Below the pieces are notes generated by a model that saw only the letters and a program-made list of their open reading frames with translations, searched no databases and was not told the DNA's origin. This document shows positions 9,876-56,653 of a DNA stretch of 64,000 nt, piece by piece. Within the stretch, counting starts at the first letter, position 1; each line of letters begins with the position of its first letter. The stretch is from Tsukamurella paurometabola (GTDB lineage: Bacteria; Actinomycetota; Actinomycetes; Mycobacteriales; Mycobacteriaceae): positions 2,946,850 to 3,010,849 of the forward strand of contig NZ_LR131273.1 of NCBI RefSeq assembly GCF_900631615.1, written 5' to 3'. Position numbers and translations under genes: made by a program.

Positions 9876-9928
9876 ACTCCTCGTGCGTTGTCATGACAGG
9901 TCGGGGACGAGGCGGGAAGATCGACGCC

Positions 9929-37944: not shown

Positions 37945-38029
37945 CCTGGAGTCCTTCCCGCTGTCGCGTGAGGTACATCACAGCAGACCCGCCACTGGTT
38001 TGGCAAGTAGTTTCACAAGATTGAAATAA

Positions 38030-38039
38030 TGTCAGGACA
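38030..38039. promoter_or_regulatory. TGWCWGRACA motif, site 1 (MFS / dehydrogenase divergon)
   Basis: TGTCAGGACA is itself an inverted repeat (TGTC-N2-GACA). It lies between the divergent sugar porter and dehydrogenase genes. Confidence 0.6.
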
Positions 38040-38102
38040 TTAATGTTCTTCTCTGGCATTGTTGAGAGTGTTGGCTCGGAACGACGACGACGGAGGTGGC
38101 GC

Positions 38103-39281
38103 ATGGTGCGCGACGAGACGCAGCAGGACCCGGCCCGCGTGCGGGTGGCGGTGATCGGCATGGGCTGGATGGGCCGAGTGCACGCGCAGGCGTACGCCCG
38201 TGTGCCGCACCATTACCCGGACGGTCCCGCAGTGCCCGTGCTGGCCGCGGTGGCCGACGACGTCCCGGGGCGTGCCGAGGACTTCGCCGCACGCTTCGGG
38301 GCGGCGGCCTCGTACACCGATTGGCGCGCGGTTCTCGACGACCCGGCGATCGACGCGGTCTCCGTCACGGTGCCGAACTTCCTCCATCGCGAGATCGGCG
38401 TCGCGGTACTCGACGCCGGGAAGCACCTGTGGATCGAGAAGCCCGTCGGCCTCACCGCGGCCGATGCCACCGCCGTCGCCGAGGCCGCGGCGCGCAACGA
38501 CCGCCGCACCACCGTCGGCTTCAACTATCGCAACGCCCCCGCCGTCCAGGCGGCCCGGGCGATGCTCGCCGACGGGCGGCTCGGCGCCGTCACCCACGCG
38601 AGGTTCCGCCTGTTCAGCGACTACGCCGCGCACCCCGACGGTGCGCTGACCTGGCGGTACCACCGCGATCGCGGCGGCAACGGTGTGCTGGGCGACCTGG
38701 GGTCGCACGGCGTGGACCTGATCACCTACCTCCTCGGCGGCATCGACGCGGTGGTCGCGGACACCGCGATCTTCATCCCGGAGCGGTCGGAGCCCACGGG
38801 CGCCACGTCGGGCCACCAGCTCGCCACCTCCGGGGTGCGCGGCCCCGTCGAGAACGAGGACTACCTGTCGGCGCAGCTGCGCCTCACGTCCGGTGCGCGT
38901 TGCGTGCTGGAGGCGAGCCGAGTGGCGGTGGGGGAGCAGAACTCCTACGGCTTCGAGATCCACGGCACAGCCGGAATGGTGCGCTGGGACTACCGTCGCA
39001 TGGGCGAGCTCGAGGCGTCGTTCGGCACCGAGTTCCAGGATCAGCCGGTCGCGACGGTGCACGTCGGCCCCGGCAGCGGCGACTACGCCGCGTTCCAGCC
39101 CGGGGCGGCGAATCCGATGGGCTACGACGACCTCAAGGTGATCGAGGCCCAGCACTTCCTGCGTTCCATCGTCACTGGCGTCCCCGAGGGCGCCACCGTG
39201 GAGGACGCGGTGCGCAGCGCCCGTGCGCTCGACGCCATGACCCGCTCGGTCGACGAGGGGCGTTGGATCGCGCTCGGGTAG
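38103..39281 (+). CDS. Gfo/Idh/MocA-family oxidoreductase
   Basis: The 392-residue NAD(P)-dependent dehydrogenase has an N-terminal Rossmann motif (VAVIGMGWMGRVHAQAY) and the signature WIEKPVG with the catalytic Lys. A C-terminal beta-sheet domain carries GDLGSHGVDLITYLLGG. It probably oxidises a cyclitol or sugar to the keto form, e.g. inositol to inosose. The ATG at 38103 has GGAGG 6 nt upstream; the earlier frame starts in the operator region. A 12-bp-stem terminator follows. Confidence 0.88.
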   Translation: MVRDETQQDPARVRVAVIGMGWMGRVHAQAYARVPHHYPDGPAVPVLAAVADDVPGRAEDFAARFGAAASYTDWRAVLDDPAIDAVSVTVPNFLHREIGVAVLDAGKHLWIEKPVGLTAADATAVAEAAARNDRRTTVGFNYRNAPAVQAARAMLADGRLGAVTHARFRLFSDYAAHPDGALTWRYHRDRGGNGVLGDLGSHGVDLITYLLGGIDAVVADTAIFIPERSEPTGATSGHQLATSGVRGPVENEDYLSAQLRLTSGARCVLEASRVAVGEQNSYGFEIHGTAGMVRWDYRRMGELEASFGTEFQDQPVATVHVGPGSGDYAAFQPGAANPMGYDDLKVIEAQHFLRSIVTGVPEGATVEDAVRSARALDAMTRSVDEGRWIALG

Positions 39282-39295
39282 TCCCGCACGGGTCG

Positions 39296-39327
39296 CGGTG
39301 CCGACGGTCCGCGGGCCGTCGGCACCG
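39296..39327. terminator. Bidirectional terminator between the dehydrogenase and isomerase genes
   Basis: Perfect 12-bp arms (39296-39307 and 39316-39327) with an 8-nt loop lie between the convergent stops at 39281 and 39335. Confidence 0.7.
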
Positions 39328-39334
39328 TCGTCCG

Positions 39335-40348
39335 TCACGCGCCGAGCGAGGCGGTCAGTGCCGCGTCGGCGGCGAGGAGGACATCGGCGGCGACCGCCAC
39401 GCCCTCCTCCCGGCCCAGCTCGGTGTCCTCGTGCTCGATGTTGACGAGCATGTCCGGGTCCACCTCGTGCAGGGCGCGCAGGAATTCGGTCCAGTACGCG
39501 ACCTCGTGGCCCTTGCCGAGCGCGACGAAGTCCCACGCCGACCGCTTCGGCCACTCGTTGGCCCACTCGTCGCCGCCGAGGTTGGTGCGGGCCTCGTCGG
39601 GCCCGAGCCGGCGGAAGGAGTTGTCCAACACGCCGTTCAGCGCCGCGTGCTCCGGGTTGATGCGCACGTCCTTCGCGGCGGCGTGCACCACGAGCTCGCC
39701 GAGGTGGCGCACCACGGCGACGGGGTCCATCTGCTGCCAGAACAGATGTGAGGCGTCGAGCTCGACGCCGAGATTCGTCGAGCCCGTCCGCTCGACCAGC
39801 TCGTGCACGGACGCGCTGTTGAAGACGAGATTCTGCGGGTGCAGCTCGAGGGCGATCTTCACGTCGTGGTCACGGGCGATCCGATCCGTCTCACGCCAGA
39901 AAGCGGTGGCGATCTCCCATTGGTGATCGAGCACGTCGAGCGCCGCCGAGTTCCACGCGTTGACCACCCAGTTCGGGTGCATCGCACCCGGATCGCCTCC
40001 CGGTAGGCCCGACATGGTGACCACCCGGTGCTGGCCGAGCCGCGCGGCGAGCCGGATGGAACGGTGGATGTCGTCGGCGTGCCGCGCGCCGATCGCAGGG
40101 TTCGGGTGCAGGGGGTTGCCGTTGCAGTTGAGCCCTGCGATCGCGACGCCGGTGCCCTCGAAGATCCCGAGGTACTCGTCGCGAGCGGTGTCGCTGGCGA
40201 GGATGTCGGCGATGTTCGGCACGTGCACCGGCGGTAGGAATCCGCCGGTGTTGATCTCGATGCCGGTGAGGCCGACGCCGGCGATCGCGCGGAGCGCGTC
40301 GGGCAGCGGGCGGTCGTGGTAGATCGCGTTGTACAGGCCGAGTCTCAT
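39335..40348 (-). CDS. Sugar phosphate isomerase/epimerase-type TIM-barrel protein
   Basis: The 337-residue protein is of the AP-endonuclease-2/IolE-IolI superfamily. Metal-ligand candidates are Glu in KIALELHPQNLVF, Asp/His in LGVELDASHLFWQQMDP, His/Asp in VVHAAAKD and Glu in VNIEHEDTELG. It shares GNPLHP and TMSGLPG segments with the protein at 48109, so the two are paralogues. Inosose isomerisation or dehydration is plausible. It lies 22 nt after the dehydrogenase at 40371-41585 and is probably co-transcribed with it. Confidence 0.82.
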   Translation of the reverse strand: MRLGLYNAIYHDRPLPDALRAIAGVGLTGIEINTGGFLPPVHVPNIADILASDTARDEYLGIFEGTGVAIAGLNCNGNPLHPNPAIGARHADDIHRSIRLAARLGQHRVVTMSGLPGGDPGAMHPNWVVNAWNSAALDVLDHQWEIATAFWRETDRIARDHDVKIALELHPQNLVFNSASVHELVERTGSTNLGVELDASHLFWQQMDPVAVVRHLGELVVHAAAKDVRINPEHAALNGVLDNSFRRLGPDEARTNLGGDEWANEWPKRSAWDFVALGKGHEVAYWTEFLRALHEVDPDMLVNIEHEDTELGREEGVAVAADVLLAADAALTASLGA

Positions 40349-40370
40349 GGTGGTGTCTCCGTCGAGGGGG

Positions 40371-41585
40371 TCAGGGGTGGGGGAGGAGGGCGGGCACGTC
40401 CACGGGTGCCCCGCCGGCCAGCGCGGACCGCGCGACGGCGTCGATCAGGGCCATGTTGTGCAGGCCGTCGGCGAAGTCCGCGTTGCGCGGCAGCGATTCG
40501 TCCGCGGGGAGGCCTGCGACCTCCTCGAGGAAGGCGCGGGCCTGGAAGACGAAGCCGTCGTTCTGGCCGATCCCCACGCCGGGCGCGTCCATCGCGAGCC
40601 CGTCCCGCCAGTACGGGTGGTCGGGGCCGAGGGTCACGGTGCGCGGGCCGCCCAGCGCGGCGTCGTCATCGGCGAAGGCGACGTGCACCTGGCCGGGGGT
40701 GCGGAAGTCGAACGAGGCCGAGCCGCGCTCGCAGAACACCTCGAACGTGAGCGTGTTGGGATGTCCGGCCGCGACGCGCGAGACCTGGAGGGCGCCCGTC
40801 CCGCCTTCCGCGAAATCGACGAAGAATCCGGCCACGTCGTCGTTCTCGACCACGTCGCGCTCGTCGCCGACCTCGGCGTGCTCGTGACCGATCACCCGGC
40901 CCAGCGGTTTCGGCCGGGTCGGGTAGGCGGTGTGCAGAGTCGCGCCGCGCACGGTGGCGACGGGGCCGCCGAACAGTTCGGCGATGTAGGTGAGGTGGCT
41001 GCCGACGTCGGCCAGGGCCCCGGATCCCGCGGGCCCCTTGAACCGCCACGAGATGGGGCCGTCGGGGTTGCAGGCGTAGTCGGTCCAGTACGCACCGTCG
41101 AAGTTGATGAGCCGTCCGAGACGGCCGCTGCGTACCAGCTCGCCGAGCAGGGCGATACCCGGCGACCGGAGGTAGGTCAGTCCGATCCTGCCCAGCACGC
41201 CGCGACCGGCCGCCGTGTCCGCGGCCGCGACCATGGCGTGGGCGTCGTCGAGCGTGTCGGACAGCGGTTTCTCGCACAGCACGTGCTTACCCGCGGCGAG
41301 GAGGGCCTCGACGATCTCGCGGTGCAGGGAATTGGCCACGACGACACTCACCACGTCGATGTCGTCCGCAGCGGCGATCGCCTGCCATGACGTGTCGTGG
41401 CGTTCGAATCCGTACCGTCGCGCGGTCTCCCGGGCCAGTGGCTCGTAGGCGTCGGCGATCGACACCAGGCGTACATCCGGGAGCCCGGGGCCGTAGACGG
41501 CCGTGGCCGATCGGTAGCCGGCGGCGTGGGCCTTGCCCGCCATTCCTGCGCCGATCACGGCGACGCCGATGCCGGTACTGCTCAT
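40371..41585 (-). CDS. Gfo/Idh/MocA-family oxidoreductase
   Basis: The 404-residue dehydrogenase has VAVIGAGMAGKAHAAGY, the signature HVLCEKPLSDTLDDAHAM and, in the catalytic region, LADVGSHLTYIAELFGG. ISWRFKGPAGSG and NAYWTDYA-like segments mark the same subgroup as bacterial inositol/levoglucosan dehydrogenases. The start at 41585 has GGAGGG upstream. It is divergent from a LacI gene, with a LacI-type palindrome and a TGACAGGACA motif between, so double control is likely. Confidence 0.88.
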   Translation of the reverse strand: MSSTGIGVAVIGAGMAGKAHAAGYRSATAVYGPGLPDVRLVSIADAYEPLARETARRYGFERHDTSWQAIAAADDIDVVSVVVANSLHREIVEALLAAGKHVLCEKPLSDTLDDAHAMVAAADTAAGRGVLGRIGLTYLRSPGIALLGELVRSGRLGRLINFDGAYWTDYACNPDGPISWRFKGPAGSGALADVGSHLTYIAELFGGPVATVRGATLHTAYPTRPKPLGRVIGHEHAEVGDERDVVENDDVAGFFVDFAEGGTGALQVSRVAAGHPNTLTFEVFCERGSASFDFRTPGQVHVAFADDDAALGGPRTVTLGPDHPYWRDGLAMDAPGVGIGQNDGFVFQARAFLEEVAGLPADESLPRNADFADGLHNMALIDAVARSALAGGAPVDVPALLPHP

Positions 41586-41639
41586 GTTCCCTCCTTCACG
41601 GGTTGATGCGAGCTCCGTCACGACCTAGTGTCGATGCGA

Positions 41640-41655
41640 GTTGGAGCGCTCCAAC
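41640..41655. promoter_or_regulatory. LacI-type operator
   Basis: GTTGGAGCGCTCCAAC is a perfect 16-bp palindrome with the central CG step typical of LacI-family sites. It lies between lacI (41702) and the divergent dehydrogenase gene. Confidence 0.65.
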
Positions 41656-41678
41656 AACAATGATGACTAATGTTCATA

Positions 41679-41688
41679 TGTCCTGTCA
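41679..41688. promoter_or_regulatory. TGWCWGRACA motif, site 2 (lacI / dehydrogenase divergon)
   Basis: TGACAGGACA is read on the minus strand, within a 13-bp match (GATTGACAGGACA) to the site upstream of iolC. Confidence 0.6.
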
Positions 41689-41701
41689 ATCGGGAGGTGG
41701 C

Positions 41702-42724
41702 ATGGCGGAGAAGCGGCCGACGATCTACGACGTCGCGACGCGAGCCGGAGTATCGAAGTCCCTGGTCTCGCTCGTGCTGCAGGGATCGCCGCGGGTCGGG
41801 GACGATTCGCGGCGTGCGGTGGAGCAGGCGATCGCGGAGCTCGGCTACCGGCCCAGCCGAGCGGCGGCGAACCTTGCGGCCCGGCGCACGCGAACCGTGG
41901 GAGTCCTGATCGACGACTACACGAACCTGTGGTTCGTCGACCTCGTGCGCGGGCTGCACGCCGCGCTCGGGCCGGCCGGGTACCGGCTCGCGGTCGTCGA
42001 CGTCGCCACCGCGGATCAGGCAGAGGACCCCGTCGAATCGATGCTGGCGATGCGCGTCGACGGGCTCGTCCTCGGTATGGATCCGCCCCGGTCACTGCTC
42101 GGCCGCGGTGATCTCGCGCTGCCGCCGGTCGTGGTCGCGGGCACGCGAGCGGTGCGGGATGCACGCTTCGACGCCGTGGCCAACGACGATGCGGAGGGGG
42201 CGCGGCTGGTGGCGCGGCACCTCGTGGAACTGGGGCATCGCACCATCGGGCAGGTGTGTGCCGGCGGTGGCGCGGGGGAGGTGCGGCGCGCGGCGTTCGC
42301 GGCCGAGGCGTCCCGCCTCGGTGTGACCGTGATCGACGCCGCGTGGCACGGAGAGGCATCGGACCGGGCCGGTTTCCGTGCCGCGTCCGATCTGCTCGGC
42401 AGAGACGCGGGGATCACCGCCGTCTTCGCTGCGAACGACGTGATGGCCGTCGGCGTCCTCGGCGCCGCGCGCGAGCGCGGCCTTCGCGTCCCGGAGGATC
42501 TCTCCGTGGTCGGTTACGACGACACCTCGCTGGCATCGACGCGGCTGATCGGCCTGACGACCGTCGACGACCGCAGCTTCGACGTGGGTCGGCACGCGGG
42601 GACGCTTCTCCACGGCCGCATGGCGCCGGGTGACGCCGCCGTGGCCTCGTCGTCGCGCGCTCGCGAGAGTCGCGTTCTCGCACCGAGACTGGTTGTGCGC
42701 AGCACGACCGCTCCCACTCGCTGA
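41702..42724 (+). CDS. LacI-family transcriptional regulator
   Basis: The 340-residue repressor has the helix-turn-helix TIYDVATRAGVSKSLVSLVL, hinge-helix residues PSRAAANLAARRT and a periplasmic-binding-protein-like effector domain (TRTVGVLIDDYTNLWFVDLV, FAANDVMAVGVLGAARERG, VVGYDDTSLAS). The start has GGGAGG upstream. Likely targets are its own gene, the divergent dehydrogenase/isomerase operon and perhaps the ABC operon that follows. Its 3' end holds one arm of a 13-bp inverted repeat. Confidence 0.92.
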   Translation: MAEKRPTIYDVATRAGVSKSLVSLVLQGSPRVGDDSRRAVEQAIAELGYRPSRAAANLAARRTRTVGVLIDDYTNLWFVDLVRGLHAALGPAGYRLAVVDVATADQAEDPVESMLAMRVDGLVLGMDPPRSLLGRGDLALPPVVVAGTRAVRDARFDAVANDDAEGARLVARHLVELGHRTIGQVCAGGGAGEVRRAAFAAEASRLGVTVIDAAWHGEASDRAGFRAASDLLGRDAGITAVFAANDVMAVGVLGAARERGLRVPEDLSVVGYDDTSLASTRLIGLTTVDDRSFDVGRHAGTLLHGRMAPGDAAVASSSRARESRVLAPRLVVRSTTAPTR

Positions 42725-42725
42725 G
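42713..42725. repeat. Left arm of a 13-bp inverted repeat around the ABC promoter
   Basis: CCCACTCGCTGAG spans the lacI stop codon. Its exact reverse complement is at 42798-42810. Confidence 0.6.
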
Positions 42726-42750
42726 TCGCGGAATCGCCTCAATGTGCGTA

Positions 42751-42760
42751 TGTCTGAACA
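42751..42760. promoter_or_regulatory. TGWCWGRACA motif, site 3 (ABC operon)
   Basis: TGTCTGAACA lies 85 nt upstream of the substrate-binding protein gene. It fits the motif seen before three other units of this region. Confidence 0.5.
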
Positions 42761-42797
42761 AATACTAGGCAAGCGATGTGATCTGTACTACATTCAG

Positions 42798-42822
42798 CTC
42801 AGCGAGTGGGTCGTCTCACTCG
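42798..42822 (+). repeat. Right inverted-repeat arm overlapping a 5'-UTR hairpin
   Basis: CTCAGCGAGTGGG (42798-42810) pairs with the arm at 42713. CGAGTGGG (42803-42810) can instead pair locally with CTCACTCG (42815-42822) across TCGT. The two folds exclude each other and lie just before the ABC operon start. Confidence 0.5.
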
Positions 42823-42844
42823 GTGAGGTCGAAGGGACACAGCA

Positions 42845-43867
42845 ATGAAGAAGACCACGCAGCGGCCGCGAAGGCTCCGCACCCTGCTCGCCGCGACCGC
42901 GGCCGGCACGGCCGCGCTCATCACGGTGGTGGGTTGCTCCAGCACGGGCGGTGCGCCGCGCGACACCGGCGACGGCGGTGCCGGCGTCGGCTCGGCGGGT
43001 ACCAAGCGACTGACCATCGCCATGGTCACGCACCAGCAGCCCGGTGACACCTTCTGGGATCTCATCCGCAAGGGCGCGGAGATGGCCGCGAAGAAGGACA
43101 ACGTCACCCTCCGCTACTCCAACGACCCGCAGGCGCCCAACCAGGCGAATCTGGTCCAGGCCGCGATCGACAGCAAGGTCGACGGCATCGCGCTCACGTT
43201 GTCCACGCCGAACGCCTTCCAGGCCGTCGTGCAGAACGCGCAGAAGGCGGGCATCCCGGTCTCCGCGTTCAACGCCGGCTACAACGACTACGCACGGATG
43301 GGCATCCAGCAGTACTTCGGCCAGGACGAGACCACCGCCGGCGTCGCGGTCGGGGAACGACTGTCCAAGGAGGGCGCGAAGAAGGCGATCTGCATCATTC
43401 AGCAGCAGGGCCAGGTGCAGCTCGAATCCCGCTGTGCGGGCGTGCGGACCGGCCTCACCGGCGGCACCGTCGAGAACCTCAACGTCAACGGCGAGGACAT
43501 GACCGACGTGCAGTCGAAGGTCAACGCCAAGCTGCAGCAGGACCCGAGCATCGACACCGTGGTGGCCCTCGGCGCGCCTTTCGCGCTCACCGCCTCGAAG
43601 GCGGTCGAGGGTGCGGCGTCGAAGGCCCGGATCGTCACCTTCGACACGAACGCCGCGCTCGTGGGCGCGATCCAGAACGACAAGGTCGCGTGGGCCGTCG
43701 ACCAGCAGCCCTATCTGCAGGGCTACCTCGCCATCGATTCGCTCTGGCTGCAGATCATCAACGGCAACACCATCGGCGGCGGCCAGGCCGTGTTCACCGG
43801 CCCCGCCTTCATCGACAAGACCAACGTCGACAAGGTCGCCGAGCTCGCCAAGGGCGGTACCCGCTGA
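42845..43867 (+). CDS. Sugar ABC transporter substrate-binding lipoprotein
   Basis: The 340-residue precursor has a basic start, a hydrophobic core and the lipobox TVVGC with acylated Cys31. The mature part is a type I sugar-binding protein (RbsB/FrcB class): LTIAMVTHQQPGDTFWDLIR, SKVDGIALTLSTPNAFQAVV and YLQGYLAIDSLWLQIING. The ligand is probably a pentose, hexose or cyclitol. It is the first gene of the ABC operon, and the permease start overlaps its stop by one base. Confidence 0.92.
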   Translation: MKKTTQRPRRLRTLLAATAAGTAALITVVGCSSTGGAPRDTGDGGAGVGSAGTKRLTIAMVTHQQPGDTFWDLIRKGAEMAAKKDNVTLRYSNDPQAPNQANLVQAAIDSKVDGIALTLSTPNAFQAVVQNAQKAGIPVSAFNAGYNDYARMGIQQYFGQDETTAGVAVGERLSKEGAKKAICIIQQQGQVQLESRCAGVRTGLTGGTVENLNVNGEDMTDVQSKVNAKLQQDPSIDTVVALGAPFALTASKAVEGAASKARIVTFDTNAALVGAIQNDKVAWAVDQQPYLQGYLAIDSLWLQIINGNTIGGGQAVFTGPAFIDKTNVDKVAELAKGGTR

Positions 43868-44925
43868 TGACCACCGACGAGGCCCTCGACCTCAGCACGC
43901 ACACGCCCGTCACGGACGAACGGGTCAAGAAGCAGAAGCCGCTCCAGCGGTTGATCCTCCGACCGGAGGTCGGAGCGCTGATCGGCGCCGTCGCCATCTT
44001 CGTCTTCTTCCTCATCGTGGCACCACCCTTCCGCAGCCCGGAGGCCTTCGCCACGGTGCTCTACGCCAGCTCGACGATCGGCATCATGGCCTGCGGCGTC
44101 GCCGTGCTCATGATCGGCGGCGAGTTCGACCTCTCGACGGGGGTCGCGGTGACCTTCTCCTCGCTCGCGGCGTCGATGCTCGCCTACAACCTGCACCTGA
44201 ACACCTGGGTGGGCTCGCTCCTCGCGCTCTGCCTGTCACTCGCGGTGGGTGCCTTCAACGGCTACATGGTGATGCGCACCAAGATCCCCAGCTTCCTCAT
44301 CACCCTGGCGACGTTCCTCATGCTCACCGGCATCAACCTGGCGGTCACCAAGATGGTCACCGGGCAGGTCGCCACCCCGACCATCGCGGACATGGAGGGT
44401 TTCCCCTCGGCCCAGGCCGTCTTCTCGTCGACGATCCACGTCTTCGGCGTGGGGCTCAAGGTGACGGTGCTCTGGTGGATCCTGTTCACCGCCGTCGCCA
44501 CCTACGTCCTGATGCGCACTCGCGTCGGGAACTGGATCTTCGCCGTCGGCGGCAACCAGGACTCCGCACGAGCCGTGGGTGTCCCGGTGACCAAGGTCAA
44601 GATCGGTCTGTTCATGTTCGTGGCCTTCTGCGCCTGGTTCGTCGGCCAGCACCTGTTGTACGCCTACGACACCGTCCAGTCCGGGCAGGGCGTGGGCAAC
44701 GAGTTCCTCTACATCATCGGTGCGGTCATCGGCGGCTGCCTCCTCACCGGCGGCTACGGGACGGCGGTCGGGGCGATGATCGGCGCCTTCATCTTCGGCA
44801 TGGTCAATCAATGCATCGTGTACGCCGGCTGGAATCCCGACTGGTTCAAGTTCTTCCTCGGCATCATGCTGCTGTTCGCCGTGATCGCCAACAACGCATT
44901 CCGCAACTTCGCCGCGAAGAGGTGA
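43867..44925 (+). CDS. Sugar ABC transporter permease
   Basis: The 352-residue CUT2-type (RbsC-like) permease has about ten membrane helices after a ~40-residue cytoplasmic start. It contains LMIGGEFDLSTGVAVTFSSL, MRTKIPSFLITLATF and GNWIFAVGGNQDSARAVGVP, the coupling-loop region. Its ATG overlaps the upstream TGA, and the ATPase gene follows after 4 nt. Confidence 0.92.
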   Translation: MTTDEALDLSTHTPVTDERVKKQKPLQRLILRPEVGALIGAVAIFVFFLIVAPPFRSPEAFATVLYASSTIGIMACGVAVLMIGGEFDLSTGVAVTFSSLAASMLAYNLHLNTWVGSLLALCLSLAVGAFNGYMVMRTKIPSFLITLATFLMLTGINLAVTKMVTGQVATPTIADMEGFPSAQAVFSSTIHVFGVGLKVTVLWWILFTAVATYVLMRTRVGNWIFAVGGNQDSARAVGVPVTKVKIGLFMFVAFCAWFVGQHLLYAYDTVQSGQGVGNEFLYIIGAVIGGCLLTGGYGTAVGAMIGAFIFGMVNQCIVYAGWNPDWFKFFLGIMLLFAVIANNAFRNFAAKR

Positions 44926-44929
44926 CCCG

Positions 44930-45742: not shown

Positions 45743-45746
45743 TCCG

Positions 45747-46904: not shown

Positions 46905-46931
46905 CCACCCCCCCATCCGAATCGAGAGAAT

Positions 46932-48107: not shown

Positions 48108-48108
48108 C

Positions 48109-49059: not shown

Positions 49060-50057
49060 ACCGGACCCGGATCGCGGTACTGGGCTGCGGGCGGATCGGG
49101 CGGGTGCACGCCGATTCCGTCGCGGCGAGCGACCGTGCCGAGCTGACGTGGGTCTTCGACCCGATCGAGGCGGCTGCGAAGGAGGTCGGCGAGCGCTGCG
49201 GCGCGGCCTGGACGACCGACGTCGAGGAGGTCCTGGCGGCCACCGACGTGGACGGCGTCGTCGTCGCCTCGCCGACGCCCACGCACGTCGACCTGCTCAC
49301 GCGCGCCGTACGGACGGGGCGGACCGTGCTGTGCGAGAAGCCCATCGACCTCGACATCGCCCGGGTGGACGCGTGCCGCGCGGACCTGGGCGAGCTCACG
49401 GCGAGGGTGATGCTCGGGTTCAACCGGCGGTTCGACTCCTCGTTCGCCGAGGTCCGCCGCCGCGTCGATGCCGGAGAGATCGGCCCGCTGGAGCAGCTCA
49501 CCATCGTCAGCCGCGACCCCGCGCCGCCGCCGGCGGACTACGTGGCCTCGTCGGGCGGGCTGTTCCGCGACATGATGATCCACGACCTCGACCTGGCCCG
49601 GTTCTTCCTCGGCGAGGTGGTGGCCGTGTCGGCCCTGGGGTCGAACCTGATCTCCGCGGAGATCCGCGCGGCCGGCGATGTCGACGGTGCCATGGTGGTG
49701 CTCCGCGGTGCCGGAGGTCAGCTGGCGACGATCACCAACTCCCGGCGCTGCGCGTACGGCTACGACCAGCGGTTGGAGGCCTTCGGTGCGCGGGGCGCTC
49801 TCAGCGCGGCCAACCAGCACGAGACCTCCGTGACCTTCTCCGGTGCAACGCACACCGATGCCGCGGGACCGGTCCTGAACTTCTTCCTGGACCGCTACAC
49901 CCCGGCCTACCGAGCCGAGCTCGACGCGTTCATCACGATGACCGAGACCGGCGGCACGGCGTCCCCCGGCTTCGACGACGGCCGGGCGGCACTGCTTCTC
50001 GCGGATGCCGCCGCGGAGTCGCTCCGCACCGGCGCGGTGGTGGAGGTCCGGGCGTGA
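49056..50057 (+). CDS. iolG: Inositol 2-dehydrogenase-type Gfo/Idh oxidoreductase
   Basis: Of the six Gfo/Idh proteins in the window, this 333-residue one most resembles IolG (myo-inositol 2-dehydrogenase, inositol to scyllo-inosose with NAD). It has IAVLGCGRIGRVHADSV, TVLCEKPIDLD, MLGFNRRFDSSF and GGLFRDMMIHDLDLARFFLG, with the Asp-x3-His pair. The ATG overlaps the isomerase stop and the next gene overlaps its own stop, so it sits mid-operon. Confidence 0.85.
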   Translation: MNRTRIAVLGCGRIGRVHADSVAASDRAELTWVFDPIEAAAKEVGERCGAAWTTDVEEVLAATDVDGVVVASPTPTHVDLLTRAVRTGRTVLCEKPIDLDIARVDACRADLGELTARVMLGFNRRFDSSFAEVRRRVDAGEIGPLEQLTIVSRDPAPPPADYVASSGGLFRDMMIHDLDLARFFLGEVVAVSALGSNLISAEIRAAGDVDGAMVVLRGAGGQLATITNSRRCAYGYDQRLEAFGARGALSAANQHETSVTFSGATHTDAAGPVLNFFLDRYTPAYRAELDAFITMTETGGTASPGFDDGRAALLLADAAAESLRTGAVVEVRA

Positions 50058-51070
50058 CGGTGCGCTGGGGCCTGCTGTCGACGTCCGGGATCGGCCGGGT
50101 CGCCGCCCGCGCTATCGCCGCGGCCGACGGGGCGGAGCTCGCCGCCGTCGCGGGCCGTGACGCCGACCGCGCCGCCGCCTACGCGGCGGAGGTGGGTTCG
50201 CCCGTCGCCTACGGGAATTACGAGGAGCTGCTCGCCGACGGCGGGATCGACGCAGTGTACGTGCCGCTGCCGATCACGCTCCACGGCGAGTGGACGATTC
50301 GGGCGCTCGAGGCCGGTAAGCACGTGCTGTGCGAGAAGCCGCTCACCCTGGACCCGGATGAGGCGACGGCCGTCTTCGACGCCGCGGAGCGCGCGGGGCG
50401 GCTCGCGATCGAGGGCTTCATGTGGCGGCTGCACCCGCAGACGCGGCCGGTCCGCCGGCTACTCGCGGCGGGCTCGATCGGTGAGCTCGCGCTCGTCCGC
50501 GCCGCACTCAGCGTGAGTGCCCCCGCGGGTGACATACGGCGCACGACCGACCTCGGCGGCGGCGCGTTGGCGGACCTCGGCGGCTACTGCGTCAGCGCGG
50601 TGCGGCTGTTCGGCGGCGAACCGTCGACGGTGCGCGCTGTTCGGGTCGCCGATCCGGCCGGCACTGGTGCGGGCCACGACCTGCGGGCCTCCGCGGTCCT
50701 CGAACTGCAGGACGGCGTCGTCGGGCTGATCGACGTCGGGCTGGATCTCGAGCGGCGCGACCAGCTCGAGCTCGTCGGCACGGAAGGACGGATCGTCGTC
50801 GACGATCCGTGGCTGTGCCGGTCCGGCACCGTCGACCTGATCCGCGCGGAGCGGTCGGAACGACTGCCCGTGGACCCGGACGGCGCCTACCGGCTCACGC
50901 CGCCGAGGCCCGACAACGAGGACGCGTACCGGCTCGAGTTCGAGGCTGCGAGCGCGGCGTTCGGTGGGCGAGCGGCCCCGGCGTTCGGCCGCGACGATGC
51001 GATCGCGCAGGCCCGCGCCCTCGAGGCCGCACGGCGTTCCGCCGCGACCGGCGTCACGGTCGTCCTCTGA
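50054..51070 (+). CDS. Gfo/Idh/MocA oxidoreductase of the dihydrodiol/xylose dehydrogenase type
   Basis: The 338-residue dehydrogenase has RWGLLSTSGIGRVAARAIAA, HVLCEKPLTLDPDEATAV, FMWRLHPQTRPVRRLL and GALADLGGYCVSAVRLFGGE. A Tyr in LGGY occupies the place where most paralogues have the catalytic His. This is typical of the dimeric dihydrodiol/D-xylose/glucose-fructose oxidoreductase branch. It is the last gene of the operon that begins at 42845; a 12-bp-stem terminator follows. Confidence 0.85.
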   Translation: MTVRWGLLSTSGIGRVAARAIAAADGAELAAVAGRDADRAAAYAAEVGSPVAYGNYEELLADGGIDAVYVPLPITLHGEWTIRALEAGKHVLCEKPLTLDPDEATAVFDAAERAGRLAIEGFMWRLHPQTRPVRRLLAAGSIGELALVRAALSVSAPAGDIRRTTDLGGGALADLGGYCVSAVRLFGGEPSTVRAVRVADPAGTGAGHDLRASAVLELQDGVVGLIDVGLDLERRDQLELVGTEGRIVVDDPWLCRSGTVDLIRAERSERLPVDPDGAYRLTPPRPDNEDAYRLEFEAASAAFGGRAAPAFGRDDAIAQARALEAARRSAATGVTVVL

Positions 51071-51085
51071 TCCGTTCCATCTCGC

Positions 51086-51114
51086 GGCCCGACGGTGCCC
51101 GTCACCGTCGGGCC
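51086..51114. terminator. Bidirectional terminator at the end of the ABC/iolG operon
   Basis: GGCCCGACGGTG (51086-51097) and its exact complement (51103-51114) have a 5-nt loop. It overlaps the last codons of the convergent MFS gene. Confidence 0.7.
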
Positions 51115-52514
51115 CTGGCGTGCTCGCCAGCCGCCGCCGGGAGGCGGAGTGCCCCGGCGAGGGGGAGCAGCAGGAGGGCGGCGAAGGGGACGAAGGCGAG
51201 TCGGTAGCCGAGCTCGCCGGCGTCCGGCCCCGCGAGGCCGGTACCGAGCCGGACCGCCGCCGCGGCCGCCGCGACGCCGAGGGCGGTGCCCACCTGCTGC
51301 AGCGTGGACGACAGGCCGTTCGCGGCGGGCAGCAGGGGCGCGGGCACGTCGGCGAACATGACGGTGTTGTACGCGCTGAAGCCGATCGACCGGACAGCCC
51401 CGGAGAACACGAGCAGCACGGCGATGACCGGCGTCGGCGTCGCCGCGTGGACCCAGGCGAAGGCGAGCAGCGTCGCCGCGCCCGCGATGATCGACCACAC
51501 CAGGGTACGCCGGAATCCCAGCAGCCGGATGATCGGCGAGGTGAGCGGTTTGACTCCCAGGTTGCCGACGAAGACCGCGGTCACCATGGCGCCGGCCGCC
51601 GTCGCGCTCCAGCCGAAGCCGGCCTGGAAGAGCAGGACGAACAGGAACGGAGCCCCGGTGATCACGAGGCGGTACACCGAGCCGCTCACGTTGCCCGCGC
51701 GGAAGGTCTTGATGCCCATGACGGCCGGGTCGAACAGCGGATGCTCGCGCCGGATCATGCCCCGCGCCGCAGTGGCGCCGAGGAGCACGGCCGCCCCGAG
51801 CAGCCCCGTGACGGCCCACGGCCGGCCGCCCTGGAGGAGCTCGACGCCGCCGGTCAGGCACACGACCGCGCCTGCCGTGCACAGGTAGCCCCAGCGGTCG
51901 AGCGCGGTCCGGATCCGTACCTCGTTCCGGGGGATCAGCCACGCGCCGCCCACCGCCAGCGCGACCCCGATCGGCACGTTGACCAGGAAGATCCACCGCC
52001 AGCCCAGGGCGTCGGTGATGGCGCCACCGACGGACGGCGCGATCACCGGTGCGATCAGCGAAGGCCACGTCAGATAGGCCATCGCCGCGAGCAGGTCGAC
52101 CGGTCGCACCGACCGCAGGACCGCGATCCGGCCCACCGGGATCATCAGCGCTCCCGCGACGCCCTGGGCGATGCGGAAAAGGCACAGCCACAGCAGGTCC
52201 GGAGCGAGGGCGCACGCCACCGAGGCGACTGTGAACCCGGCGACCGACCACAGGAAGACGCGCCGCGTGCCGTACCGCTCCGCGATCCATCCCGCGGCGG
52301 GGATGGCCACCGCAACGGCCAGCAGATAGCCGACGATCGCGGGGCTCACTCCCGCCGGCACGACCCCGAACTCGTCGGCGACGGCGGGCGCAGCGGTTTG
52401 TAGCACCGTCCCGTCGAGGTTCTCGAGGAACAGCGCGCCCGCGACGAGGAGAGCGAGCGGGCGGCTGAAACTCGTGGCTCCCCTCCTCCCGAGCCGAGCT
52501 GAGCGGCGCGACAT
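51102..52514 (-). CDS. MFS transporter (EmrB/DHA2-like)
   Basis: The 470-residue MFS protein has about 13-14 membrane helices. It begins its core with FLENLDGTVLQTAAPAVADE and has GWIAERYGTRRVFLWS, the DHA2-type FRIAQGVAGALMIPVGR and GWRWIFLVNVPIG. Such proteins usually export drugs or metabolites, though here it ends an operon with a PhyH dioxygenase and an SDR, so a substrate-specific role is possible. It starts 38 nt after the SDR stop, and no Shine-Dalgarno is evident before the ATG. Confidence 0.85.
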   Translation of the reverse strand: MSRRSARLGRRGATSFSRPLALLVAGALFLENLDGTVLQTAAPAVADEFGVVPAGVSPAIVGYLLAVAVAIPAAGWIAERYGTRRVFLWSVAGFTVASVACALAPDLLWLCLFRIAQGVAGALMIPVGRIAVLRSVRPVDLLAAMAYLTWPSLIAPVIAPSVGGAITDALGWRWIFLVNVPIGVALAVGGAWLIPRNEVRIRTALDRWGYLCTAGAVVCLTGGVELLQGGRPWAVTGLLGAAVLLGATAARGMIRREHPLFDPAVMGIKTFRAGNVSGSVYRLVITGAPFLFVLLFQAGFGWSATAAGAMVTAVFVGNLGVKPLTSPIIRLLGFRRTLVWSIIAGAATLLAFAWVHAATPTPVIAVLLVFSGAVRSIGFSAYNTVMFADVPAPLLPAANGLSSTLQQVGTALGVAAAAAAVRLGTGLAGPDAGELGYRLAFVPFAALLLLPLAGALRLPAAAGEHARARR

Positions 52515-52552
52515 GTCAGTATGTTCGGTCCCGTACCGGCGCGGTGCACCCC

Positions 52553-53341
52553 TCAGTCGTAGGCGCCGCACACCTGCTGGTCCCAGTCGATCACCGAGCC
52601 GGTCACCACGCCGCTGCGGTCCGAGAGCAGGAAGATCACGGCCGCGGCCGCGTCCTGCGCGGAGGCGAGCCGCCCGGCCGGGAGGGAACGACCGGCGACG
52701 TCGGCCCAGTCGTCCGGAGCGTCGTGGAATCGCTTCTGCACGAGGGCTTCCCCTTCCGTCTCGGTCCAGCCGATGTTCAGGCCGTTGATCCGGATCCGGT
52801 CGAAGCGGTGCGCGTGCGCCGCGTTCTTCGTGAGCCCGATCAGCCCGGCCTTCGCGGCGACGTACGGCGCCAGGTAGGGCTGCCCGCCGTGCGCCGACAT
52901 CGAGATGATGTTGACGACGGTGCCCGGGGCGTTCCGCGATCGCATGTCTCGCACCGCCGCGGCCATGGTGAAGAAGGGCGCGCGGAGATTGATCGCGATG
53001 TGCTCGTCGAAGAGCTCGGGAGTGGTCTCGGTCAGGGTGCCGCGCGAGGTGAGTCCCGCAGCGTTGCACAGACAGTCGACCCGTCCGAAGGCCGCCACGA
53101 CCGCATCGACCGATCCCGTCGCCTGCGTCGGATCAGCGACGTCGGCGCGCACGAACAACGCCTCGGCGCCGTTGCCGGCCAACTCGGAGCGCAGCGCCTC
53201 CCCGGTGGCGGCGTCCCTCCCGGTGAAGGCGACGCGAGCTCCCGCAGCGGCGGCCTCCCGGACGACCGCGGCGCCCACGCCGCGGCTGCCGCCCGACACC
53301 AGGACCACCTTGTCCGCCAACTCGGCGGGCCGCGCGATCAC
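52553..53341 (-). CDS. SDR-family oxidoreductase
   Basis: The 262-residue short-chain dehydrogenase has the cofactor motif LVSGGSRGVGAAVVREA, LCNAAGL (NNAG equivalent, with Cys instead of the first Asn) and the catalytic Ser-Tyr-Lys set (ISMSAHGGQPYLAPYVAAKAG). ADVADPTQ indicates Asp-dependent discrimination, probably for NAD. The GTG overlaps the stop of the PhyH gene by 4 nt. It may oxidise or reduce the hydroxylated product of that enzyme. Confidence 0.87.
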   Translation of the reverse strand: MIARPAELADKVVLVSGGSRGVGAAVVREAAAAGARVAFTGRDAATGEALRSELAGNGAEALFVRADVADPTQATGSVDAVVAAFGRVDCLCNAAGLTSRGTLTETTPELFDEHIAINLRAPFFTMAAAVRDMRSRNAPGTVVNIISMSAHGGQPYLAPYVAAKAGLIGLTKNAAHAHRFDRIRINGLNIGWTETEGEALVQKRFHDAPDDWADVAGRSLPAGRLASAQDAAAAVIFLLSDRSGVVTGSVIDWDQQVCGAYD

Positions 53342-54528
53342 GGGCGGTGCCGCTCGTCGAGCGCCGCGAGTTCGGCCGCGAACGCCGCCGGTGCGAGGCA
53401 GGCGTCGAGTGCCCGGCGGGTCAGCTCGGCCTGCGTCTCGCCGTGCATGCCGCCCAGCGGCTGATCCCGGTCCAGGTTCGACGGGAACGCGTACCCCTCC
53501 GCGGAAGCGGCCACGAGATTCTCCACGGCGCGTGCCTCCCCGGCGGCGGCGAGTGCCTGCAACTCGGGGTAGACCGCGCGCAGGATCGCCGACCGGTCCA
53601 CGGCGTCCATGGCACGCCCGAAGGCCGAACTGATCTGCAGCAAGTTCGCCATCCGGCGGATGCCCGTCGATCGGTTGGAGCCCGCGGCGTGGAACAGCGC
53701 GGGGTTGAAGAACACCGCGTCGCCGGCCCGCAGCGGGAGCTGGACGTGATTCGCCGCGAAGTAGTCCCGGAACTCCGGGAGGTTGAAGGCCAGGTAGCCG
53801 GGTTCGTAGCGCTGGGAGTACGGCAGGTACAGCGTGGGACCCGACGAGACGGGCATGTCCACCTGTGCGACGGCGCCCTGCAGCGTCAGCGCGGGGGAGA
53901 GCAGATGCGTGTGGCGCGGGAAGCGTTTCGCGGTCTCGGGCTCCATGAAACCGAGGTGGTAGTCCCGGTGCGGCGATTGCGCCGTCCCACCGGGGTTGAC
54001 CACGTTGATCGCCGAGGTCACCTGGTACATCGGGCCGAGCCACGCGGTCGCGACGAGCGCGAGAACGTCGTTGGCGTAGTAGCGCGCGAAGGACGCCGGG
54101 TCGCGCAGTGCGTGCTTCTGCAGGGCGTTCCAGATCCGGTCGTTGGCGCCCGGCGCGGCGAAGTGGTCGCCGCCGCCGACACCGGCCGCGCGCTGCTCGG
54201 CGATCATGGCGGTGAACAGCTCCGTCGATGCGCGCAGGCCGTGCCGGTCGTCGAAGGCACCGTCGAAGACGACGATGCCGGGGCCGGTCAGCAGGGCCCG
54301 CGCCAGCTCGTCGGACAGTTCCTCGCGCGCGTCCGGATCCGCAGCGGCCTCGGCGGCTTCGGCGCCGTAGCAGAGGACACCGCGTACGGCGCGGTCCGCG
54401 TAGGGGTAGAGCGACAGGTCGGTCTCGGCCTCGAGCAGCGCGGTGAACGCGTCGAGATCGCAGTCGGTCTCGGCGATCCGGCCCGCTCGGTCCGCCGCTC
54501 CGGTGCGCGGTGGTGAGGTGGTGGACAT
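53338..54528 (-). CDS. Phytanoyl-CoA dioxygenase (PhyH)-family protein
   Basis: The 396-residue protein is probably an Fe(II)/2-oxoglutarate oxygenase. The facial triad can be placed as HRDYH (H-x-D, about residue 200) and a later His in NPALFHAAGSNRSTGIRR, whose Arg would bind 2-oxoglutarate. It is longer than typical PhyH proteins (~280-300), with extra N- and C-terminal helical regions. The substrate is unknown. It is the first gene of a PhyH-SDR-MFS operon divergent from a LacI gene. The ATG at 54528 has AGGAA upstream. Confidence 0.8.
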   Translation of the reverse strand: MSTTSPPRTGAADRAGRIAETDCDLDAFTALLEAETDLSLYPYADRAVRGVLCYGAEAAEAAADPDAREELSDELARALLTGPGIVVFDGAFDDRHGLRASTELFTAMIAEQRAAGVGGGDHFAAPGANDRIWNALQKHALRDPASFARYYANDVLALVATAWLGPMYQVTSAINVVNPGGTAQSPHRDYHLGFMEPETAKRFPRHTHLLSPALTLQGAVAQVDMPVSSGPTLYLPYSQRYEPGYLAFNLPEFRDYFAANHVQLPLRAGDAVFFNPALFHAAGSNRSTGIRRMANLLQISSAFGRAMDAVDRSAILRAVYPELQALAAAGEARAVENLVAASAEGYAFPSNLDRDQPLGGMHGETQAELTRRALDACLAPAAFAAELAALDERHRP

Positions 54529-54609
54529 ATCGGTGTTCCTGACGTCGATGTGAAGCGGGAGTGGGGGAATCGGTGTCCGCCACGGATTCATCGTGGCAAG
54601 CTGTCGAGG

Positions 54610-54624
54610 CCGGGGATACCCCGG
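54610..54624. promoter_or_regulatory. Candidate operator between the PhyH operon and lacI
   Basis: CCGGGG-ATA-CCCCGG is a perfect 6+3+6 inverted repeat in the divergent region. Two copies of AATCCCTCA 11 bp apart (54626-54634 and 54637-54645) follow it. Confidence 0.4.
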
Positions 54625-54663
54625 AAATCCCTCAAGAATCCCTCAGCGCGAGGAGGTCCCGCG

Positions 54664-55692
54664 GTGGCGCACTCCCACCCGATCCGCGAGATCGCGCGGC
54701 AGGCGGGCGTCAGCGAAGCCACCGTCGACCGCGTGTTGCACGGCCGCGCCGGTGTGCGCGAGGGGACGGCCGCGCAGGTCCGCCAGGCGATCGCGGACCT
54801 CGATCGGCAACGCTCCCAGCTGCGGTTGTCGGGGCGGCGGTTCATGCTCGATCTCGTCATGCAGACCCCGCGCCGATTCTCGGACCTGACCAGGGACGCG
54901 TTGGAGGCCGAGCTCCCCACCCTGCGCCCCGCGGTCTTCCGCGCCCGCTACCACGTGCGGGAGGAATGGGAACCGGGGGCGCTGATCGCGGAGCTCGACG
55001 ACATCGCGCGGCGCGGCAGTCACGGCGTCGTGCTCAAGGCGCCCGACACCCCCGGCGTCGCGGCGGCGATCGGGCGGCTCACCGCGCGTCGCATCCCCGT
55101 GGTCACCGTGGTCACCGATGTCCCGCAGAGCACGCGGATCGCGTACGTGGGTATGGACAACCACGCGGCGGGCGCCACCGCCGCGCACCTCGTCACCCGG
55201 TGGGTGGGGGAGTCGCCGGGAGCCCTGCTCGTCGTGACCAGCGGGCGGCTCTTCCGCGGCGAGGAGGAACGGGAGACGGGCTTTCGCAGCGAGATCCGCC
55301 GGACCGATCCGCGGCGGCGCGTCGTGGGCATCGACGACACGGGAGGCCTCGACGCGGTGTGCCGGCGGGAGGTGGCGGCGGTGCTCGCCCGAGAGCCCGT
55401 GATCGCCGCCGTCTACTCCCCGGGCGGCGGGAACCGCGGCATCGTCGCCGCCTTCGACGAGGCCGAGCGGACGTACCGCGGCTACATCGGTCACGACCTG
55501 GCCGAATCGAACCGGGAACTACTGCTGGCGGGCCGGATCTCGGCCGTGCTGCACCACGACCTGCGCGCGGACCTGCGCGGCGCGGCTCACGCGATCATGG
55601 CCTTCCACGGCGCGATCGACGGCCCGCAGCGGCCACGGCCCACCGCGATCCAGATCGTCGTGCCGCCGAACCTCGCGGCGGTGGACGGCTAG
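54664..55692 (+). CDS. LacI-family transcriptional regulator
   Basis: The 342-residue regulator has the N-terminal helix-turn-helix PIREIARQAGVSEATVDRVL and a periplasmic-binding-like effector domain (GMDNHAAGATAAHLV, VYSPGGGNRGIVAAFDEA, GYIGHDLAESNRELLL). This is the subgroup often linked to sugar or inositol ABC and catabolic genes. The GTG has GAGGAGG upstream. It faces the PhyH-SDR-MFS operon and is convergent with the GntR gene, overlapping it by 4 nt at the stops. Confidence 0.9.
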   Translation: MAHSHPIREIARQAGVSEATVDRVLHGRAGVREGTAAQVRQAIADLDRQRSQLRLSGRRFMLDLVMQTPRRFSDLTRDALEAELPTLRPAVFRARYHVREEWEPGALIAELDDIARRGSHGVVLKAPDTPGVAAAIGRLTARRIPVVTVVTDVPQSTRIAYVGMDNHAAGATAAHLVTRWVGESPGALLVVTSGRLFRGEEERETGFRSEIRRTDPRRRVVGIDDTGGLDAVCRREVAAVLAREPVIAAVYSPGGGNRGIVAAFDEAERTYRGYIGHDLAESNRELLLAGRISAVLHHDLRADLRGAAHAIMAFHGAIDGPQRPRPTAIQIVVPPNLAAVDG

Positions 55693-56429
55693 CGGCTGAA
55701 CACCGAGACGTCGAAGAAGTAGCGCGACGCGCGGTAGACGTGGCGGCCCAGTTCGATCGCGGTGCCGGACTCGTTGAAGGCGACGCGCTGCATCGTCAGC
55801 ACGGCGCCGCCTGCGGGCTCGTCGAGCAGGCGCGACTCGTCGTCGTCGGAGATGCGGGCGCCGATCCGCTGCTGCGCCTGGGCGATCGTGATGCCGCGCC
55901 CACGCAGGCACTGGTACAGGCCCTTGCTCTGCAGCTCGTCGGGGGCAGGGGCGAGTTCGGCGGGGATGTAGTTGGTGAGGATCGCGAGGGGGACGTCGTC
56001 CGCGCTGCGGAGCCGACGGATCGACACGACCTGTGCGTCGTGCTCGATGCCGAGCTCGTCCGCGATCTCCTCGTCGGGCCTGCCGAGGCGGTAGTCGAGG
56101 AGTTCCGTCGACGGCGTCTGGCCGGCGGCGATCAGGTCCTCGTAGAGGCTGGTGAGTTCGACCGCGCGGTGCACCTCGTTGCGCACCACCTGGGTGCCGA
56201 CTCCGCGCTTGCGGACCAGCAGCCCCTTGTCCACCAGCGCCTGGATCGCCTGTCGCGCCGTCGGGCGGGACAGGGTGAGTCGCTTGGCCAGGTCGATCTC
56301 GTTCTCGATGCGGTCGCCGGGCACGAGCTCGCCGTTGAGGATCGATCGCTCGAGGGCCTGTGCCAGTTGGTAGTACAGCGGCACGGGGCTGGTGCGGTCC
56401 AGTTCGACCGAGACCGGGGCGGGGGACAT
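55689..56429 (-). CDS. iolR: GntR-family regulator of inositol catabolism (IolR-like)
   Basis: The 246-residue regulator has a GntR winged helix (PLYYQLAQALERSILNGELV, then RLTLSRPTARQAIQALVDKG and RKRGVGTQVV) and a UTRA effector domain (about residues 85-235). It is divergent from iolC in the same arrangement as C. glutamicum iolR-iolC, where the GntR protein represses the iol genes. The ATG at 56429 is supported by TAGACT 7 nt upstream. The symbol is by context and family; binding is not shown. Confidence 0.8.
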   Translation of the reverse strand: MSPAPVSVELDRTSPVPLYYQLAQALERSILNGELVPGDRIENEIDLAKRLTLSRPTARQAIQALVDKGLLVRKRGVGTQVVRNEVHRAVELTSLYEDLIAAGQTPSTELLDYRLGRPDEEIADELGIEHDAQVVSIRRLRSADDVPLAILTNYIPAELAPAPDELQSKGLYQCLRGRGITIAQAQQRIGARISDDDESRLLDEPAGGAVLTMQRVAFNESGTAIELGRHVYRASRYFFDVSVFSR

Positions 56430-56436
56430 GGGATGC

Positions 56437-56442
56437 AGTCTA
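56437..56442 (-). promoter_or_regulatory. -10 element before the GntR gene
   Basis: TAGACT is read on the minus strand, 7 nt before the ATG at 56429. TTGTTCGTACAA (56481-56492), an imperfect palindrome further upstream, could be an autoregulatory site. Confidence 0.45.
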
Positions 56443-56614
56443 GTGCACCGATCGCGAAAATGCGGGGCGCTGTTGAGGGTTTGTTCGTACAATCGCCACT
56501 TGCGTGACCGAGCGATCTATGTCCGCACATATCGGAGCTTTGTCAGTCGGTGGGTGTCGAGGACTTCGCCGAGCATCGAGAGTCGGACGCCGTATACGAC
56601 CTGCTCGAAGGCTA

Positions 56615-56644
56615 TTGAAGAATGTCGGCCGCTTCTGTTAGATT
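56615..56644 (+). promoter_or_regulatory. Promoter of the iolC operon
   Basis: TTGAAG (56615-56620), an 18-nt spacer and TAGATT (56639-56644) place transcription start near 56651, inside the regulator motif, with a ~60-nt leader before iolC. Confidence 0.55.
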
Positions 56645-56653
56645 GACAGGACA
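56644..56653. promoter_or_regulatory. TGWCWGRACA motif, site 4 (iolC operon)
   Basis: TGACAGGACA begins at the last base of the -10 and covers the predicted start point, a classical repressor position. Confidence 0.65.

Follow-up and report, generated by a model that had tools for sequence, protein, structure and literature searches.

In the stretch of Tsukamurella paurometabola DNA analysed here (64,000 nucleotides of contig NZ_LR131273.1, the whole of which is called the window), a short motif recurs upstream of genes for inositol uptake and breakdown. With a probability of about 0.93 it represents the operator of IolR, a GntR/HutC-type repressor encoded by gntR (55689–56429), which would act at five places and be released by an inositol catabolite. 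A preliminary description had read the motif by eye as TGWCWGRACA in front of four transcription units and proposed an IolR regulon under this GntR-type protein. The four copies, with their positions and strands, were confirmed as the only exact ones in the window, and very probably are IolR landing sites through which inositol uptake and breakdown genes are switched together. The regulon itself finds support in the syntenic orthology of the regulator, in the co-occurrence of motif and regulator, and in the recovery of the same sites after training on held-out loci, so that sequence comparison supports a regulon covering the original four units, and probably gntR itself. Less complete was the original motif, which describes the four exact sites correctly but is better written as the palindrome TGTCnnGACA, and which missed two weaker sites upstream of gntR. 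The elements in question are as follows.

38030–38039, plus strand: predicted IolR operator 1, TGTCAGGACA (other strand TGTCCTGACA), in the divergon of a major facilitator superfamily (MFS) transporter and a Gfo/Idh/MocA dehydrogenase
41679–41688, minus strand: predicted IolR operator 2, TGACAGGACA, in the lacI/dehydrogenase divergon
42751–42760, plus strand: predicted IolR operator 3, TGTCTGAACA, upstream of a rhizopine/sugar-type ATP-binding cassette (ABC) transporter operon
56644–56653, plus strand: predicted IolR operator 4, TGACAGGACA, upstream of iolC
56482–56491, no strand assigned: additional, weaker predicted IolR site, TGTTCGTACA, upstream of gntR
56520–56529, no strand assigned: additional predicted IolR site, TGTCCGCACA, upstream of gntR
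55689–56429, minus strand: gntR, IolR orthologue of the HutC subfamily with GntR DNA-binding and UTRA effector domains (Pfam GntR 1.2e-15, UTRA 3.3e-37), divergent from iolC
56711–57688, plus strand: iolC, 5-dehydro-2-deoxygluconokinase, first gene of the core inositol operon (NCBIfam TIGR04382 5.7e-112, above cut-off)

Predicted operators in the window and genome

Exact TGWCWGRACA is found four times in the window, where 100 shuffles averaged 0.38 and one of them reached four, and nine times in the 4.70-Mb genome (the reversed control fifteen times), four of the nine falling within one 18.6-kb span. Since the pattern was derived from these very sites, fair tests are independent ones that make no use of them. 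Such a test was provided by 117 non-Tsukamurella loci (some species being present in two collections), 92 of which carry an exact site and 19 a one-mismatch site within 300 bp of iolC or gntR, and from which 56 unique 18-mers were used to train a matrix. A motif-free survey of the same loci identified TGTC-N2-GACA as the commonest 4-bp inverted repeat over spacers of 0–12 (92 of 117 loci, with the next at 60), and TGTCAGGACA as the most widespread 10-mer (73 loci). Applied to the window, the held-out matrix ranked operator 1 first (25.86), followed by operators 4 (20.78), 3 (18.91) and 2 (18.57), and placed fifth and sixth the two sites upstream of gntR, 56482–56491 (15.78) and 56520–56529 (13.79). 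None of 15 Markov shuffles attained the scores of these six, and the seventh-ranked position (9.4) is at chance level. The four sites are thus real and non-random. Genome-wide searches with the patterns TGWCWGRACA, TGTCNNGACA, WTGTYNNRACAW and WTGWCNNGACAW yielded, besides the four reported sites (18.6–25.9), nothing above 12.05, the maximum among 17 other matches of TGWCWGRACA and TGTCNNGACA; these patterns miss both gntR-proximal sites (13.8 and 15.8), and further sites may escape likewise. One candidate within the window, at 9889–9898 (TGTCATGACA), was rejected, as it falls within a phosphofructokinase reading frame, close to the start of the gene, and its score of 9.36 is within chance (1.07 expected per 64 kb).

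These scores bear on the notion that the motif reflects chance or promoter composition, being the −35-like TTGACA of unrelated promoters, a notion that is scarcely credible. TTGACA is indeed contained in operators 2 and 4, operator 2 overlaps a promoter-like match (TTGACA-18-CATCAT) for the minus-strand gene, and the one-mismatch pattern is not enriched. However, TTGACA is absent from operators 1 and 3, the exact pattern is rare genome-wide and clustered in this region, the four sites stand well apart from the 17 other pattern matches on the held-out matrix, and iolC loci lacking gntR also lack the motif.

Conservation within the genus points the same way as the matrix in favour of IolR operators. 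Operator 2 is invariant in 10 of 10 aligned genus genomes, operator 3 in 11 of 11 and operator 4 in 12 of 12 loci, where it reads TGACAGGACA throughout (own genome included in each count), and each of the three is top-ranked among the 10-column stretches of its own aligned intergenic region, although ties occur. Operator 1 is retained at 10 of 11 genus loci, own genome included, as an exact palindrome in six and as a one-mismatch copy in four; variation among genomes affects the two bases at its centre and the fourth base. This drift of the centre, with the outer arms held, argues for a HutC-type palindrome TGTCnnGACA with A/T flanks rather than TGWCWGRACA. The palindrome also bears on a comparison with the IolR consensus of Corynebacterium glutamicum, KGWCHTRACA, whose targets are iolC, a transporter and the promoter of iolR itself. 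The four sites had been said to fit it at nine of ten positions, always differing at the sixth, which holds in the orientation written, but the minus strand of operator 1 (TGTCCTGACA) fits at ten of ten. Upstream of gntR, mean column identity over 12 genomes is 0.92 for 56482–56491 and 0.95 for 56520–56529, and exact palindromes are found near the place of the latter at loci L021, L040, L041 and L042.

Regulator orthologues and the operator

The gntR protein matches 23 NCBIfam models, every one below its cut-off, and its identity was approached through its relatives and their gene order. In a genus designated g3, taken from its gene neighbours to be Corynebacterium and hence called Corynebacterium-type, iolC is found in four of 151 genomes, all of which encode, divergently beside iolC, a protein 50–52% identical over its full length to the gntR protein, and all of which have at least one exact TGTCnnGACA near iolC. 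A divergent position beside iolC is what we take to be the place of IolR in C. glutamicum. Judged by sequence and gene order, the gene at 55689–56429 and that of the IolR-position protein in Corynebacterium-type genomes are syntenic orthologues. Closer to hand, named relatives put the present genome in or next to Tsukamurella, with 99% identity to proteins of that genus. An orthologue of at least 78% identity is present in 12 of 16 genus genomes, and in the wider family, with up to 13 candidates scored per genome, orthologues were found in 47 of 201 genomes at 55–100% identity, followed by a drop to 36%. All 47 are among the 59 family genomes with iolC (E-value up to 1e-50; Fisher p 6e-35, kinship ignored), and in the 12 iolC genomes without an orthologue, re-searched with every candidate scored, the best match was 34% identical.

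In addition, the operator follows the regulator. Of 48 loci with an orthologue, 32 (31 of 36 from other genera and one of 12 from this genus) carry an exact TGTCnnGACA in the 350 bp preceding iolC, and the remaining 16 have a one-mismatch copy (five and eleven, respectively). None of ten iolC loci without the regulator (L110–L118, L120) has TGTCnnGACA at fewer than two mismatches in that stretch; these ten are the readable ones among 11 upstream stretches fetched for the 12 genomes lacking an orthologue. Left aside were G038, whose contig begins inside iolC, L119/G160, where tblastn did not retrieve iolC from the stretch fetched, and L058, a locus without iolC whose genome is counted via L127; G009 is part of the 48 loci and lies outside the 201-genome sample. 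Shuffles of the same upstream stretches contain an exact site in 0.008 of cases and a site with at most one mismatch in 0.18, so that weight is carried by the exact sites across genera and by conservation within the genus. Genera g6, g9 and g16 each hold both states, and the contrast is therefore not merely one between clades. Among the matches listed, the operator accompanies orthologues of the regulator in Mycobacterium, Rhodococcus, Gordonia, Geodermatophilus and some Streptomyces and Microbacterium.

The same survey speaks to the possibility that the binder is a LacI-family regulator (41702–42724 or 54664–55692) and not GntR. Both lacI genes do lie in this region, the first directly beside operator 2. 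Yet G004 and G012, which have no match to the first LacI (E-value 1e-60), retain sites in front of iolC, of the ABC operon and of the MFS or dehydrogenase gene, and the iolC loci that lack gntR lack the motif as well. Furthermore, the first LacI has a perfect palindrome of its own (TTGGAGCGCTCCAA), unique in the genome and conserved beside lacI, while the second has no homologue, among the matches listed, in many of the fetched motif-bearing fragments, which are fragments rather than whole genomes. The LacI proteins are for these reasons very improbable as binders of the motif.

Recognition residues and proposed mode of repression

Further insight into the IolR branch comes from the solved structure of the HutC repressor NagR, for which passages of PMC4333415 assign the reading of G-5 in GTGGTCTAGACCAC to Arg38, that of G-4 to Arg48, and the anchoring of the wing to Gly69. 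The gntR protein aligns with NagR without gaps over the DNA-binding domain, placing Ile45, Arg55 and Gly76 at the positions of these three residues. Among 115 orthologue sequences (51–100% identity, some species appearing twice), position 45 is leucine in 68, isoleucine in 33 and valine in 14, and R55 and G76 are invariant. The IolR-type operator has G at −4 and T at −5, which is what retention of the Arg48 contact and loss of the Arg38 contact would lead one to expect. This match of residue to base, a structural inference for the IolR branch, would amount to a recognition rule for one branch of the HutC subfamily. A correlation between one operator base and a residue at what is presumably the same place in the helix is described in passages of PMC4494728, which do not name IolR.

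Paralogues behave differently, having arginine at position 45 in 18 of 18 sequences, together with arginine at the place of NagR Arg48; 16 of the 18 are alike, and few independent groups are represented. This bears on the suggestion that functional sites are confined to iolC and gntR, operators 1–3 being relics or operators of another GntR-type paralogue. The imperfect half found in each of operators 2 and 3, and the 13 further GntR-type matches in the genome (E-value up to 0.001), would agree with it, but relics are at odds with the invariance of these two operators across 10 and 11 genomes, and for paralogues with arginine as the reader of position −5 (18 examined, 16 alike) a different operator is predicted. 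We regard this suggestion as improbable, and IolR as the probable occupant of all these sites.

In the proposed mechanism, an IolR dimer would bind A/T-flanked TGTCnnGACA at the MFS/dehydrogenase and lacI/dehydrogenase divergons, the ABC-transporter operon and the iolC operon, and with less strength in front of its own gene. Once bound, the repressor would block the promoters, with steric block the likeliest mode by analogy with C. glutamicum, and an inositol catabolite, most likely phosphorylated (e.g., the IolC product), would release it. Binding, repression and inducer are what we infer from the computed sites, their conservation, the regulator’s orthology and its match to the operator. Operator 4 touches TAGATT, read by eye as the −10 element of iolC, and in the four Corynebacterium-type loci a TGTC-type site touches TATTGT (in L139 as a one-mismatch copy). 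As to the inducer, passages of PMC4918961 give R-x-R as the phosphate-binding pattern of HutC effector domains, and R139-x-R141 is present in all 115 orthologue sequences, making a phosphorylated catabolite such as the IolC product plausible. Upstream of iolC at loci L047, L053, L126 and others, the main operator is accompanied, at a distance of 11 bp or one turn of the helix, by a further element, AGTCTTGACA, which may be a second operator or a −35 element.

Several observations weigh against this account. In the window, matches to TGWCWGRACA with one mismatch allowed show no excess (9 found, 10.4 expected), operators 2, 3 and 4 each have one imperfect half-site, and operator 1 is absent from one of the 11 aligned genus genomes (G007). 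Of the 117 non-Tsukamurella loci, six are devoid of any site with at most one mismatch within 300 bp, all of these being without iolC in the fetched fragment. Cross-genome counts ignore shared ancestry; chance would place a one-mismatch site in 0.18 of stretches, so that the 16 one-mismatch loci (11 of this genus) are weak singly, and zero in ten loci without the regulator is only mildly below the chance expectation of about 1.8. When the four regions were scanned for sigma-70-like promoters, the single match was at operator 2, with nothing found for iolC, for the ABC operon or for the MFS divergon, which leaves the −10 contact at iolC as one read by eye only. Finally, R-x-R is also present in 18 of 18 paralogues, and the pattern therefore does not single out an inositol phosphate.

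Genes of the region and comparison with known systems

The genes and elements around the predicted operators are the following.

36490–37944, minus strand: sugar-porter MFS transporter, predicted target of operator 1 (TIGR00879 3e-94, above cut-off)
38103–39281, plus strand: Gfo/Idh/MocA dehydrogenase, levoglucosan-dehydrogenase-like (below that model’s cut-off), predicted target of operator 1
40371–41585, minus strand: Gfo/Idh/MocA dehydrogenase, predicted target of operator 2
41641–41654, no strand assigned: LacI-type palindrome TTGGAGCGCTCCAA, between dehydrogenase and lacI
41702–42724, plus strand: LacI-family regulator, with the perfect LacI-type palindrome nearby
42845–43867, plus strand: substrate-binding protein of a rhizopine/sugar-type ABC transporter, predicted target of operator 3 (NF052284 3.2e-58, below cut-off; Pfam Peripla_BP_4)
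54664–55692: second LacI-family regulator
57522–58595, plus strand: reading frame (frame limits, not gene start) holding a Cgl0159-like protein, after iolC (Pfam PF22649 5.1e-128)

The LacI-family protein at 41702–42724 is probably a local second regulator of the lacI/dehydrogenase divergon. Its palindrome is a single copy in the genome at up to one mismatch, and over 10 of 10 genomes no variation is seen in columns 1 to 11, the final three not aligning; perhaps it forms a local switch nested inside the IolR region. A tentative wider proposal, to which we give slightly less than an even chance, is that the actinobacterial IolR clade constitutes a HutC branch with a switched recognition code, in which a branched hydrophobic residue has throughout taken the place of the arginine that reads G-5 in NagR/DasR and reads T-5 instead, giving TGTCnnGACA, and the conserved R-x-R pocket senses a phosphorylated inositol catabolite, and that in Tsukamurella the same switch drives a second, rhizopine-type uptake and dehydrogenase block under added local LacI control.

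Some further features lie among these genes. A CRP/GlxR-like site, CGTGAGGTACATCACA, with one mismatch to TGTGAN6TCACA, is located upstream of the MFS gene at 37967–37982, and the part of it reading GTGAGGWACATCACA is kept in 8 of 11 aligned genus sequences, which suggests added cyclic AMP-type control; two such sites were found in the window against 0.68 expected by chance. At 42777–42795, 16 bp downstream of operator 3, a 19-bp block (TGTGATCTGTACTACATTC) is invariant in 11 of 11 aligned genus sequences, and is perhaps the promoter of the ABC operon. An open frame on the minus strand (50887–52290) has no match to any Pfam family; in nine genus loci with a match to it, identity is 50–61% in eight and 89% in one, and its neighbour genes are mostly more conserved.

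In terms of novelty, the regulon is of a known actinobacterial kind, that of C. glutamicum, and not a new kind of system. What this analysis adds is a definition of the operator as a palindrome, two sites close to gntR, the finding that the operator is widely conserved, and a correspondence between residue and base. A motif read by eye has thereby become a regulon with defined predicted operators and a named regulator, whose operator accompanies its orthologues in several actinobacterial groups. No earlier description linking inositol and GntR in Tsukamurella was found, judged by titles among openly licensed papers, and a search of the same type of literature did not find the consensus KGWCHTRACA in print.

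The IolR regulon of C. glutamicum, with a regulator of the GntR type, was reportedly described by Klaffl et al. in 2013, and repression of inositol genes by GntR-type IolR in this species is stated in passages of PMC9603128. Shared by the two systems are a regulator divergent from iolC, a Cgl0159-like protein next (a family matched in C. glutamicum and in one other of 14 named controls), TGTC..GACA near iolC, and transporters as predicted targets. A palindromic equivalent of the KGWCHTRACA type is likewise found in the regions upstream of iolC, the transporter and the regulator’s own gene, the strict form occurring only in operator 1 of the four. Tsukamurella differs in adding a rhizopine/sugar-type ABC operon and a lacI/dehydrogenase divergon, in the imperfection of one half in three of its four operators, and in having TGACAGGACA as its iolC site.

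The name IolR is also shared by repressors of inositol catabolism from unrelated families. Those of Bacillus subtilis and Salmonella are DeoR-type, and that of Sinorhizobium is RpiR-like, going by a title in the reference list of PMC9603128. Nearer in structure are NagR and DasR, GntR/HutC regulators acting at dre-sites, which have the same domain architecture and operator register as the Tsukamurella protein, and whose Arg48 (reading G-4) and Gly69 have conserved equivalents in it. Unlike NagR as described in passages of PMC4333415, the IolR branch has leucine, isoleucine or valine at the place of Arg38 and T as the corresponding operator base, with TGTCnnGACA instead of TGGTCTAGACCA.

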